A stretch of DNA of 64,000 nt from Verrucomicrobiaceae bacterium (GTDB lineage: Bacteria; Verrucomicrobiota; Verrucomicrobiia; Verrucomicrobiales; Verrucomicrobiaceae). A model generated the notes under the pieces. It was not told the DNA's origin. It was given only the letters and a program-made list of their open reading frames with translations, and made no database searches. Shown here piece after piece: positions 25,824-31,101 of this stretch (its first letter is position 1; the number at the start of each line of letters is the position of its first letter). Location of the stretch: positions 806,001-870,000 of the forward strand of contig JABTUN010000002.1 of assembly GCA_015075365.1 (NCBI GenBank), given 5' to 3'. The translations under genes were made by a program, and so were the position numbers.

Positions 25824-26274
25824 GGATGGCCGAAAAAGAGAACAGAGGGGAAAAGAGGATGGGCGGTGTTGGAAACCGCTGTGGGGGGCACGAAGGCTGC
25901 GCCAGCCAGGCAGCCCTCTCGCTCCGCGAGAGGAGCTAAGCGCATGGCAGGCTCCACCATGGACGAGTCGGGGCTGGCAGGCCGCGGCGCAGATCGTTCG
26001 CTCATCTCAGCGGAGCGAGATGGCTACCTTGCTTCGCCGGATCGCTCGTGGCCACATCCCGCCTCATCACCTGGTGTGAAGGCAAGCCCTTGGAGTCATG
26101 GAGTGCTGGAGCATGGGAAACCCAACACTCCCCTGCTCCACCGCTCCATGCGCGGGATCATCATGGTGACGCGGAGTCTGTTTTCGGAAACGGCCCGGCG
26201 GCCTTGCGTGCCAAGACAACTGCCACCGGCCCCTGCCCGGCTCTTTTCCTCTTGTTTCTCTCTTTCGGCCATGC
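25824..26274. repeat. Inverted-repeat element A upstream of the STAND gene
   Basis: The left arm at 25824-25858 (ATGGCCGAAAAAGAG, then AACAGAGGGGAAAAGAGG) matches the reverse complement of the right arm at 26240-26274 with only a few differences. Inside are two shorter hairpins: 25915-25933 (CCTCTCGC paired with GCGAGAGG), and 26003-26022 (CATCTC paired with GAGATG) followed by GCTACC. The same arms flank element B at 29.1 kb. No transposase or open gene is present, so this looks like a MITE-like or structured intergenic repeat. Most of the 616-nt gene-free stretch 25818-26433 is this element. Confidence 0.65.
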
Positions 26275-26379
26275 TGCTCCGTCGCTCCCACCGCCTTCCG
26301 TGCCCGCCACGTTGACCCCACCGGTATTTTTCACTGGTCAAAACACGCGCTTTCACCTTGGGTGGGCGGCAGGTGATCT

Positions 26380-26442
26380 TGCCGCGTCTTTGGAAGGCGC
26401 TGCATCGTCCGCAGACCTTGTTGCATCGTGTCCATGCCGTTC
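26380..26442. repeat. Short run of 21-bp periodic repeat abutting the STAND gene start
   Basis: Three consecutive 21-nt units begin with TGCC or TGCA at 26380, 26401 and 26422. The first ends in TTGGAAGGCGC, very like units of the larger array at 29413-29706. The third unit runs into the start codon of the STAND gene. The short length makes this less certain than the downstream array. Confidence 0.45.
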
Positions 26443-28809
26443 CCGCATCAACAACATGCCGCTCAAATCGGCGACCGGCTGAACATACTCGCCGATCAAT
26501 TGAAGACGCGCACCCGCGCCAGCCTCAATGACGCCAATCACTGGCTGGAGTCCGCCATGAAGCGTTTCTTCAATGCCTTGATGGGCTGGGACTTGGTCAA
26601 TCTCAACATCGAAAAGCCCAATTACCCGGCGGCAGACCTCGGCGATAAAGCACGCCGCATTGCCATTCAAATCACCAACCAAGAGGACTCCGACAAGATC
26701 ACCGAGACAGCGGCCAAGGCCATCAAGCACAAGCTGCACAAGGACTACAACCGCCTCATCATCTTCTTCCTGCTGCCGCGAAAGCCTCCGATGCCAAAGG
26801 GGTTCAAGCAGTCACCCGATGGTCCGGTCATCGAATGCCGGGACATCGCCGATTTGTTGAGGCAGCTACCCGAGTTGGAGGATCAAGGCCGCTTGAAGGC
26901 CGCCAATGATGTCCTCGCGAAGGAACTCGGCATCCGTGATACGGACGAGAGCGTCTATCCATCGAATCTCCCCGGCATCTACGCAGGCTGCGTCTTTGTG
27001 GGTCGCGAGCAGTTCCTCAATGACCTGCGCGCGTCGCTCCTGAAGAAGACGCAAGCCACCGCCATCATGCAGGCACCCGCCGCCACGGGGATCTCCGGCC
27101 TCGGCGGCATTGGCAAGACGCACGCGGCGGTGGAATACGCCCGCAGGCATCAGGCCGACTACAGCGCCACGCTCTTTGTCAGCGGCGATTCATCCGAGCG
27201 GCTCGACAGCGGCTTCTCCGCGCTCTTCGACGTTCTCTCCCTCGGCCGCAAAAACGAGATGGAGAGCGATCAGGCCGCGCGCGTCGCCGCCGTCATGAAA
27301 TGGTTCGCCAGCCATGACAAATGGCTGCTCATCGTCGATAACGTCGATGACGAAAAGGCGGCAGCCGCGCTCGACCAATACATGGGCCACCTCGGTCGGG
27401 GTCATGTCCTCATCACCTCCCGCCTGCAAAGCTGGGCTGACAATGTCGCCACCCTGCCCATCGAAGTCCTCAGCCTCGATGAATCCATCGACCTGCTGCT
27501 CCAGCTCACCGATAAAAAGCGCCGCCGCACCGATGACGAGGCCGCGCAGGCCCGCCTCCTGGCCGAAAAACTCGACGGCCTGCCCCTCGCGCTGCATCAG
27601 GCCGCCGGTTACATCAACGAACAGCGCCTCACCTTCGCCCAATACCTCGCCGAGTATGAGCAGGAGGCCGCGAGGCTGCTCGACTGGTTCAAGAGCCATG
27701 TCATCCATTACGAGCGCCTCGAAAAAGACACCCCCAAGCCCGTCCTCATCACCTGGAAGACCAGCTTCGACAAGCTGGATGCCGACACCCGCTTCTGGCT
27801 CCTTGTCTTCGCCCACTTCGCCCCCGATCCCATCCCCGAGTTCCTGCTCGACTCCGCCCCGGAGGCCTCTGCCGAGGTCAAAACGCTTTTGCGTTCTGCC
27901 CAAGACGCCCTCGCCCAGGCCGAGGGCTACAGCCTCCTCACCCGCTACGATGCCCCCCCCCGCTTCAAGCTCCACCGCCTCGTCCAGCACATCCTCCGCC
28001 TCACCGCCCCGGCGGCCGAATGCGCCACCGCCCTCGCCATGGGCATCCGGCTTTTCGTTGAAGGCAATCTAGGCAATCCGCTGGATGTCCGAACCTGGAA
28101 AAAATGGACGCCGCTCCAGCCCCACGCCGTCTCCCTCGTCACCCACGCCCCCGATGCGCCTGCGCTGGAGCGTTTGAGCTGGTTGGTGGGGCAGTTGGGA
28201 AATCTGTTTCACACCAAAGGCATTCATGGAGAAGCTGAAAAACACTTACTCCGCGCCTGGAAGCTGGATGAGACCCGCTATGGCCCGGACCATCCTGCTG
28301 TCGCCATTCGCCTCAACAACCTCGCTACGTTGCTCCAGGCCACGAACCGGTTGGCGGAGGCCGAGCCATTGATGCGGCGTGCCTTGCAGATCGATGAGGC
28401 CAGCTATGGCAAGGACCATCCCAATGTCGCCGCGAGTCTCAACAACCTCGCGCAGTTGCTCAAGGCCACGAACCGGCTGGCGGAGGCCGAGCCGCTGATG
28501 CGCCGCGCCTTGCAGATCGACGAGGCCAGCTATGGCAAGGACCATCCCAATGTCGCCACGAACCTCAACAACCTTGCGCAGTTGCTCAAGGCCACGAACC
28601 GGCTGGCGGAGGCCGAGCCACTGCTGCGACGTGCTTTCGACATCTTTGTGCGTAGCCTGGGACTGGAGCATCCGAAAGCGCAGGGAGTCGGTGGGAACTA
28701 CATCCGTCTCCTGAAGGCCCTGAAGGTGCCGGAGGAGGAGATTGGGGAGCGGGTGAAGAGCGCGATGGGCAAGAGCGGGAGCGCGGAAGCGGGTGGCGGT
28801 GCCGGGTGA
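26434..28809 (+). CDS. SMEK-like / NB-ARC / TPR protein (NLR-like STAND NTPase)
   Basis: About 791 residues in three parts. Residues 5-130 resemble the SMEK domain placed at the N-terminus of STAND ATPases (LNDANHWLESAMKRFFN, LVNLNIEKPNYPAADLGD, ARRIAIQITNQ). The NB-ARC NTPase follows, with P-loop GLGGIGKT at 222-229, Walker B KWLLIVDNVDD, RxxxR-like VLITSRLQSW and the GLPLAL motif. The C-terminus is TPR, with three almost identical 42-residue repeats. STAND proteins of this build sense a ligand with the repeats, oligomerise through the NTPase and activate the N-terminal effector; many defend against phages. The N-terminal effector activity is not established here. The ATG at 26434 was chosen over GTG 26428. 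The gene stands alone and is flanked by related repeats on both sides. Confidence 0.85.
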   Translation: MPFPHQQHAAQIGDRLNILADQLKTRTRASLNDANHWLESAMKRFFNALMGWDLVNLNIEKPNYPAADLGDKARRIAIQITNQEDSDKITETAAKAIKHKLHKDYNRLIIFFLLPRKPPMPKGFKQSPDGPVIECRDIADLLRQLPELEDQGRLKAANDVLAKELGIRDTDESVYPSNLPGIYAGCVFVGREQFLNDLRASLLKKTQATAIMQAPAATGISGLGGIGKTHAAVEYARRHQADYSATLFVSGDSSERLDSGFSALFDVLSLGRKNEMESDQAARVAAVMKWFASHDKWLLIVDNVDDEKAAAALDQYMGHLGRGHVLITSRLQSWADNVATLPIEVLSLDESIDLLLQLTDKKRRRTDDEAAQARLLAEKLDGLPLALHQAAGYINEQRLTFAQYLAEYEQEAARLLDWFKSHVIHYERLEKDTPKPVLITWKTSFDKLDADTRFWLLVFAHFAPDPIPEFLLDSAPEASAEVKTLLRSAQDALAQAEGYSLLTRYDAPPRFKLHRLVQHILRLTAPAAECATALAMGIRLFVEGNLGNPLDVRTWKKWTPLQPHAVSLVTHAPDAPALERLSWLVGQLGNLFHTKGIHGEAEKHLLRAWKLDETRYGPDHPAVAIRLNNLATLLQATNRLAEAEPLMRRALQIDEASYGKDHPNVAASLNNLAQLLKATNRLAEAEPLMRRALQIDEASYGKDHPNVATNLNNLAQLLKATNRLAEAEPLLRRAFDIFVRSLGLEHPKAQGVGGNYIRLLKALKVPEEEIGERVKSAMGKSGSAEAGGGAG
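28303..28680 (+). repeat. Three tandem 126-bp TPR-encoding repeats within the STAND gene
   Basis: Units at 28303-28428, 28429-28554 and 28555-28680 each encode a 42-residue TPR of the type LNNLA-LL-ATNRLAEAEPLMRRAL. The first two, and the first half of the third, are nearly identical even at silent positions. A more diverged copy precedes them. Such identity indicates recent duplication or gene conversion. Confidence 0.9.
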
Positions 28810-29099: not shown

Positions 29100-29320
29100 G
29101 GATGGGCCGAAAAAGAGAAAAGAGGGGAAAAAGGAAAAGGCGGATAAAGGTAGGGCGCTTGGTCCTCCAAGCGCCGGTTCGCAGGCCAGAGGGCATACGA
29201 GAGCACTTTTCAGCCCGCGCAGGCCGCAGGACGCTCGTGCGGCGGCTGGGGGACCAGCCGCCCTACCTGATGAAGATGCTTCCCCGGCTCTTTTCCCTTT
29301 TTTCTCTCTTTCGGCCATGC
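29100..29320. repeat. Inverted-repeat element B (second copy of the arms of element A)
   Basis: The left arm (29101-29140, GATGGGCCGAAAAAGAGAAA then AGAGGGGAAAA) and the right arm (29287-29320, reverse complement ATGGCCGAAAGAGAGAAA then AAGGGAAAAGAG) match those of element A. Two inner hairpins face each other: GGCGCTTGG/CCAAGCGCC at 29154-29175 preceded by GGTA, and GGCGGCTGG/CCAGCCGCC at 29241-29262 followed by CTACC. The interior is shorter than in element A and not clearly related to it. No transposase is encoded. Confidence 0.65.
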
Positions 29321-29412
29321 TGCCGTGCCTTTTGCCAAACCACCGCATTCTGGTGAATGCGCCACGCGGCGCGGCGTGGGATTGTTTGCCAGAACAAGGG
29401 AGCGGAATGGGC

Positions 29413-29706
29413 TTGGGAGCGGTCTGCAACGTCTGGAGAGGTGGCCGCGTCGTCTTGGGATGGCGTTGAAACGCCTTGGGATGGCCCTGAAACGTCTTTT
29501 GAGGGTGCTGAAATGGTTTCAATGGATCAAAAAGACGATGCAGCGGACTGCCCGGACGCTGCATGGCTATTGAAAGACGATGCAGGAGCTTGGAAAGACG
29601 ATGCAATTGTTTCAGCAGACGATGCAGCGCGTGCAAAAGGCGTTGCATGGGGCCTGGAAGCCGTTTCAGGAGCCTGAATGGGCGCTGCAAGTGACCTAGG
29701 AGGCAC
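29413..29706. repeat. Fourteen-unit, strict 21-bp degenerate periodic array
   Basis: Divided into 21-nt units from 29413, all 14 units begin with T. Seven begin with TGCA, and eight consecutive units (6-13) carry G-N-C-G at positions 17-20. Units differ greatly elsewhere, yet no unit has an insertion or deletion. In one plus-strand frame the array gives heptads such as WDGVETP/WDGPETS; on the minus strand it gives LHRLxxx and FQxHPKx heptads. Neither strand has a start with coding support. The constant period without sequence conservation is unusual. No spacers or cas genes are present, so it is not CRISPR. Confidence 0.75.
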
Positions 29707-30003
29707 GGACGATCTTCAAGGGCATTTGGCTGATCTCCCGGCGGGCTGGTGTGTGCATGACAAGCCGGATTGGTAGGCGCATGGGTCGGTTTGACGTGCA
29801 AAAAGTGTTTGCAATGACCTAAGAGGCATGCATGGTCCGCCCAGCCAGCCGCTGAGGTGATGCCACCCGGCGGCGTGGTTTGTGAATCGACAGGCCAGCC
29901 ACCATGAGCCGTTTGTTCAGCCTCCCCCACCAGCCTGGGCGTGCGCGCCGCAGGCGCACGGGGAATTCGTGCCGCTGGTCCTCCACCCTCCACCGCCGCA
30001 CGC

Positions 30004-31101
30004 ATGCCGCACGATCCCCTGAAGGCCCGCTGGAATGACGGCAGCGTGTGGAACGGCGGCTTTCTGTGGTCGTCCGGCTCCACGCCGCCTGAGGAAACGC
30101 CTCTGCTGCCCGCCACACCGATCCCCCTCAACACCCATACCACCATGCAACCCCACGAAATCACCAAGGAACGCGCCATCCTGTCCCTGACAGTGTGGAC
30201 GCAGCACGCGCCGGCGCTGATGATCGGCAATCAAGGCACGACGGAGCTGGAGGCTCTGATCGACCAGTATGAACCGCTGGTGCAACTGCGGGCGGTGAAG
30301 CAGGACGAGGCGGACGCCGCCTACCGCGCGCAGCAGACGACGCTGGCGAAGCTGAAGCTGCTGGGCACGCGGGTGGCGCAGATCATCGAGGGCCACCACA
30401 GCGAGGATGTGCTGATCATGAAGGACCTGAAGGATGTGTATCAAACCTCCCCGCGCAGCGAAGGGACTATCCTGGAGCGGGCGCGGATGCTGTACCCGCT
30501 GTGGGTGCGGGTGAACACGGCGCGGGCGGCGCACACGCCGGCGCTGCCGCCGATCACGCGGATGGTGCAGGGCGTGGACCACACGGCGGCGATGTTCAAG
30601 GCGCTGCTGGACGGCTATACGACGCAGGTGCAGGCGCGCAGTGACGCGGACGGGGTGCTGGCAGGGACGAAGAAGGATCTGGAGGACCTCAACGAGGAGA
30701 CGGACGCGCTGATCAAGAAGTGGTACAAGGTGATGAAGGCCAGCTACGATCCGGGATCGCCGGAATACGAGGCGCTCTCCAGCATCCCGACGGAGGGCGG
30801 CACGCCGGCGCCGGGGATCATCGAGATCAGCACGGTGGTGCAGGGCGGGGAGAACGGCCTGCATGTGGAGGCGGAGTATGTGCCGGGCGGCGGGGAGCAC
30901 GCGACGACGCGGCTGATCAAGTGGATGGTGGTGGGCGTGGACACGGGCTTCACCCACAGCGAGCCGCTGGAGGCGACGGGGAACGTGATCGGCCCCTTCG
31001 TGGTGGGAAATGTGGTGAAGCTGATGACGGAGGTGAGCAACAGCTCCGGCACACGCACGAGCGCGGAGCGGACGATCACGATCGAGCCGCCGATCGTGTA
31101 G
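30004..31101 (+). CDS. Hypothetical protein, helical with C-terminal beta domain
   Basis: 365 residues if started at the ATG at 30004; an alternative ATG at 30145 would give 318. The first 47 residues are Trp/Pro-rich (MPHDPLKARWNDGSVWNGG). The middle is helical (about residues 50-235). The last about 120 residues look like an immunoglobulin/fibronectin-type beta sandwich (IIEISTVVQGGENGLHVEAEYVPGG, EVSNSSGTRTSAERTITI). No signal peptide, enzyme motif or known family was recognised. Codon use is strongly G-ending, unlike the C-rich SEC-C operon. It follows the repeat region and is convergent with the isochorismatase-SGNH gene. Confidence 0.65.
   Translation: MPHDPLKARWNDGSVWNGGFLWSSGSTPPEETPLLPATPIPLNTHTTMQPHEITKERAILSLTVWTQHAPALMIGNQGTTELEALIDQYEPLVQLRAVKQDEADAAYRAQQTTLAKLKLLGTRVAQIIEGHHSEDVLIMKDLKDVYQTSPRSEGTILERARMLYPLWVRVNTARAAHTPALPPITRMVQGVDHTAAMFKALLDGYTTQVQARSDADGVLAGTKKDLEDLNEETDALIKKWYKVMKASYDPGSPEYEALSSIPTEGGTPAPGIIEISTVVQGGENGLHVEAEYVPGGGEHATTRLIKWMVVGVDTGFTHSEPLEATGNVIGPFVVGNVVKLMTEVSNSSGTRTSAERTITIEPPIV

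Follow-up and report, generated by a model that had tools for sequence, protein, structure and literature searches.

The locus raises the question of what a run of fourteen degenerate 21-nt units might be, lying between two genes of a Verrucomicrobiaceae bacterium whose genome is 6.9 Mb; a preliminary description had offered an ordered protein-binding array, a curvature array, or the relic of a heptad-repeat gene. The window, as used here, is the whole stretch of 64,000 nucleotides that was analysed. The lag-21 identity of positions 29413-29706 was 0.56, compared with 0.263 for 500 dinucleotide shuffles (z 10.9), with echoes of the period at lag 42 (z 9.2) and lag 63 (z 6.7), and the array was the strongest periodic signal in the window when lags 10 to 99 were scanned. 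This excess over the shuffled controls bears out the strict 21-bp periodicity that had been described over 14 units; as also described, T occupies position 1 in 14/14 units without any indel, and G-N-C-G stands at 17-20 in eight consecutive units, counted from 29518. The period of the 14-unit array stood and its single orientation did not, the first five units running the opposite way.

The two arms (left units inverted, right units forward) were revealed by related arrays, and in this register the window array extends over 29407-29707 around a 7-bp centre (Table 1). Each arm was scored with a weight matrix trained only on arrays from other genomes and with no window sequence; this window-free matrix was used because the profile model R1 had included window rows, making its E-values for the window partly circular. 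The left arm scored 38.7 on the minus strand versus 6.9 on the plus strand, and the right arm 46.6 on the plus strand, where the background maximum of the same matrix was 8.9 (684,440 positions). In 10/11 two-armed arrays of this and related genomes the unit frames of the two arms were 7 bp apart; at the eleventh (L149) the scan picked a place inside an arm, and a like centre, CTGCAATGGTTGCAG, is visible there by eye. The array is a genuine element with strict spacing and two arms, and its type of locus recurs. A small satellite of like units stops 9 bp short of the NB-ARC gene. The sequence TGACCTANGAGGCA occurs twice, at 29692-29705 (inside the last array unit) and at 29815-29828 (123 bp downstream), and is absent from all other fetched loci.

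Table 1. Features of the array and its surroundings (positions within the window).
Feature	Position	Strand	Basis
Satellite, about three like units	26362-26424	-	Spaced pattern; window-free matrix 17.4 vs background maximum 8.9
SMEK-NB-ARC-TPR (STAND-type) gene, far side of array	26434-28809	+	Pfam
Open frame, 106 aa, over most of array, heptads ..KDDA..; probably not a gene	29357-29677	+	ORF list
Left arm, five 21-nt units, inverted	29407-29511	-	Window-free matrix score
7-bp centre between arms, AATGGTT, dyad TGAAATGGTTTCA	29512-29518		Gap common to 10/11 arrays
Right arm, nine 21-nt units, forward, consensus approximately TGCAGNGNNNNNNAAAGRCGA	29519-29707	+	Window-free matrix; lag 21
Possible leader ORF, 44 aa (MSRLFSLPHQPG...), overlaps family-1 gene start	29904-30038	+	Similar ORF at L177-L179
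Family-1 gene, 365 aa: W-rich disordered N-terminus, helical bundle, fibronectin-III-like C-terminus	30004-31101	+	Homologues with upstream arrays

The array sits between the SMEK-NB-ARC-TPR gene and a gene of what we call family 1, which starts about 300 bp downstream; the called neighbours comprise SEC-C, SMEK-NB-ARC-TPR, family-1 and GDSL lipase genes. The family-1 protein had no Pfam match above cut-off, and its structure model (pLDDT 82) gave the domain order listed in Table 1. ORFs similar to the 44-aa candidate leader were found at three orthologous loci. Pfam matches of the far-side gene were SMEK_N (2.4e-33), NB-ARC (1.2e-10) and TPR, and it is uncertain that this gene forms part of a unit with the array and the family-1 gene; its TPR part holds a 126-bp tandem repeat (28267-28634, 2.9 copies, 87% matches), a sign of recent repeat turnover. 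A sigma-70 promoter scan across the array region and a tRNA search at the array found none; the Rfam matches were all below threshold and to unrelated families, most of them falling on a flanking hairpin. Beside the array, at 29104-29317, is a long inverted repeat (AAGAGAAAAGAGGGGAAAAAGG ... CCCTTTTTTCTCTCTTTCGGCC) that matches Rfam hairpin families by chance; it may be a dispersed intergenic repeat, since one of its ends resembles 26240-26280.

We then examined related genomes for arrays of the same period. BLAST with the window array, in its own genome and in a set of 56 genomes, returned no convincing related array; a spaced pattern, followed by a sequence-only profile (built from non-overlapping pieces, since overlapping windows had misaligned), found like arrays (unit approximately TTGCAGYGRCCNNNAAAAGNCG) elsewhere in the genus, and pattern, profile and periodicity searches together yielded dozens of 21-nt arrays. 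An array lay upstream of a family-1 gene in five genomes (G000, which is the window's own, G008, G011, G032 and G057). Seventeen family-1 loci came from a search across GTDB species genomes; besides Verrucomicrobiaceae they included records under the titles Limisphaerales and Verrucomicrobia subdivision 3. Of the 17, 15 had sufficient upstream DNA and, with the window, made a test set of 16. Lag 21 was the top upstream lag at 16/16, and an upstream 21-nt array was present at an identity cut-off of 0.49 at 15/16, the remaining locus falling just below the cut-off, compared with 8/212 control genes of the window's genome (Fisher 7e-17). The more distant family-1 arrays appear single-armed, and two two-armed arrays (L149, L156) had no family-1 gene recognised alongside.

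The letters of the unit are wholly different between distant family-1 loci (for example CGGTGTCGTGGCCCTCTACGT at L190 and AACGTCCCGG... at L193). Adjacent spacing was exactly 21 in 119/124 family-1 unit neighbours (about 96%, a figure that leans upward because the chaining penalised other spacings), neighbours that are themselves just 57% identical, and conservation in these arrays is concentrated in a single block of each 21-nt unit and lacks a codon period.

Further 21-nt arrays in the window's genome precede genes of a second family (about 277 aa; 19 matches there, some partial), and such an array was upstream at 20/22 family-2 loci examined (Fisher 1.5e-20 versus the same controls). Resemblance between the two families is confined to a W-rich motif at the N-terminus (hhalign E 6.5e-4, probability 28%), and for this reason the array is the main thing common to both. 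The 21-nt period is held across families and orders despite the changing letters. Many family-2 arrays have an HTH gene on their upstream side, and the block GGCTCGTCC recurs in three arrays that adjoin related HTH genes, the rest of the unit being different; this is only suggestive of a putative regulator binding the units, and the block may have been retained through plain common descent. Several family-2 genes (L229, L230, L240, L241) are followed by a small gene (MPFDPSLPQ...QLNAL...), which may also belong to the cassette. A 21-nt array at L055 (8261-8533) adjoins an HTH gene with no family-1 or family-2 gene recognised, perhaps a cassette minus its last gene, and a GC-rich 21-nt repeat at L062 (6208-6510; GGGGAGCCCCCGGCCTCACGG) comes after a coding gene and is tied to neither family.

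A period of 21 nt is also seven codons, and the arrays might be translated minisatellites or their relics, with an ancestral heptapeptide-repeat ORF translated just before the downstream gene (the family-2 arrangement) and a decayed copy in the window. The family-2 arrays have near-identical units and are contained in an open frame that runs to the start codon of the downstream gene (TGATG or TAATG overlap); over 19 of them the sense frame contained 4 stops and each of the five others 38-71, and several of the ORFs start MNAT. Judged by these frames the family-2 arrays are probably translated, and the frame may be a leader crossing the array. In the window, the 106-aa plus-strand ORF is in the same relative frame as family 2, and it is the one exception to the claim of the preliminary description that the array has no convincing reading frame, which otherwise holds. 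Family-1 arrays, on the other hand, contained 17-59 stops per frame with none of the frames favoured, and codon coherence among the window units was weak (best z 2.6-2.7 in twelve frame tests); on these grounds the 106-aa frame is probably not a gene, and a heptad protein was rejected for the window array. The peptides of different family-2 arrays are unrelated whereas the period is invariant; relics should collect indels, yet most neighbours stay spaced 21; and a heptad gene would not be expected to give inverted arms a constant 7 bp apart. The relic proposed earlier draws some support from the translated-looking ORFs of its family-2 kin; family 1 keeps no open frame and codon coherence in the window units is weak, and we consider this explanation unlikely. 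Because the spacing of 21 is kept while units are 57% identical and no frame is favoured, selection on spacing rather than on reading frame is the simplest account, and the comparison argues for selection acting on the spacing itself (two helical turns), not on a heptad protein.

The explanation that we prefer, and to which we would give an even chance, is that the array is a helically phased array of putative protein-binding sites acting on the downstream gene. It would be a cis-acting nucleic-acid element with one site per 21 bp, each unit consisting of one conserved block and one freer block; since 21 bp is two turns of B-DNA, all conserved blocks would face one way. Most likely a DNA-binding protein would sit on neighbouring sites along a single face of the helix and control the gene that starts about 300 bp downstream; in the window's group the putative sites run outward as two arms from the fixed 7-bp centre. 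What was observed is the periodicity, the inverted arms, the fixed centre, the association with the gene family, the maintenance of spacing despite divergence and, in family 1, the lack of frame conservation; we infer that a protein binds the array, that DNA rather than RNA is read there, that the binding acts on the downstream gene, and that the XRE-type HTH protein encoded next to some related arrays is their regulator. Of the three readings offered in the preliminary description, the ordered protein-binding array is thus the best supported (spacing of 21 despite divergence, fixed 7-bp centre, one conserved block per unit), with the binding itself putative. The curvature array was not general: units of sister arrays such as those at L190 and L193 have few or no A-tracts, and A-tract curvature was rejected as a general function. 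Against a binding array, HTH genes adjoin family-2 arrays and not the window array, where no HTH gene was recognised among the called and scanned neighbours. One conserved protein cannot read all arrays, because the unit sequences differ wholly between distant loci, and the two-armed arrays L149 and L156, with no recognised family-1 neighbour, also count against it.

The inverted arms could instead pair into a long hairpin in a transcript or leader and so affect expression of the downstream gene. Folding was better than shuffled for the window (z -4.4), L095 (z -4.7) and L084 (z -3.8) but no better for L092 (z -0.9), and such fold scores follow from inverted consensus units. Units facing each other across the arms did not exceed other pairs in similarity (0.543 vs 0.536, p 0.5). 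This lack of covariation between the arms makes a paired RNA stem less likely, and the long paired hairpin was rejected. The single-armed look of the distant family-1 arrays also speaks against a structured RNA, which we regard as quite improbable. Least probable of all is that the array marks a place of gene exchange, by recombination or insertion, which would explain the changing defence-like neighbours (a STAND, TPR, Roc-COR-TIR or AIPR gene stands on the far side of many family-1 arrays, and the far-side gene varies: SMEK-NB-ARC-TPR in the window, TIR-NB-ARC-TPR at L155/L178, a 237-aa protein at L179, a dehydrogenase-like gene at L177, AAA plus TPR at L184, Roc-COR-TIR at L182, AIPR at L192), but the window array had no recognised recombinase next to it, phage and plasmid records gave no match to family 1, and viral contigs gave none to either family.

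Returning to the phased binding array, a broader and more doubtful form of it, which we put forward tentatively, is that of a recurrent verrucomicrobial cassette: a strict 21-bp phased array of free unit sequence, W-motif / fibronectin-III genes and often an HTH gene of its own, the cassette being governed by a nucleoprotein filament that in some lineages would be two-armed from a fixed centre. If this were true, the arrays would make up a class of cis-element defined by spacing and not by sequence. Similarity searches miss such elements because the period is kept while the letters change. If spacing is the selected trait, the arrays offer a natural series in which to study the reading of helical phasing. 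They also link two protein families, one with many copies in the window's genome, and give each a testable putative control element.

No description of such arrays or loci was found in the open-licence literature searched and no described family fitted. The recurrence of arrays with this unit length, often in different letters, ahead of nearly every member of both gene families points to an undescribed spacing-dependent element. CRISPR arrays resemble the window array in that their units repeat regularly and are partly conserved, partly variable; here, in contrast, the 21-nt unit has no separate repeat and spacer of usual length, the arms are inverted and no cas gene was recognised nearby, and a CRISPR reading was rejected on the continuous 21-nt units (confirming the earlier remark that CRISPR spacers are absent), the arms, and the lack of cas among the called neighbours. 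Coding minisatellites, which are variable-number heptapeptide repeats, have the same 21-nt unit and are approached by family 2 with its open frames and near-identical units; a nearly stop-free frame across homologues was found in family 2 and not in family 1, the window included, and the period locked at 21 with unrelated peptides and the two inverted arms also set the arrays apart. Replication iterons (17-22 bp) and plasmid centromere arrays such as parC are phased arrays of operator or iteron-type sites. The called neighbours of the window array included no Rep gene, and the replication iteron reading was rejected for want of an initiator gene next to the array; the partition centromere reading was rejected for want of partner genes, no ParR/ParM, ParA/ParB or TubR/TubZ being among the called and scanned neighbours. 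The window array thus differs from these systems in having no recognised replication or partition gene alongside, and the arrays in general differ in a unit sequence that is free between loci and in preceding genes of unknown function at many chromosomal places; what they have in common with iteron and parC-type arrays is tandem sites about two helical turns apart, a conserved block in each unit and, in some, inverted sets.
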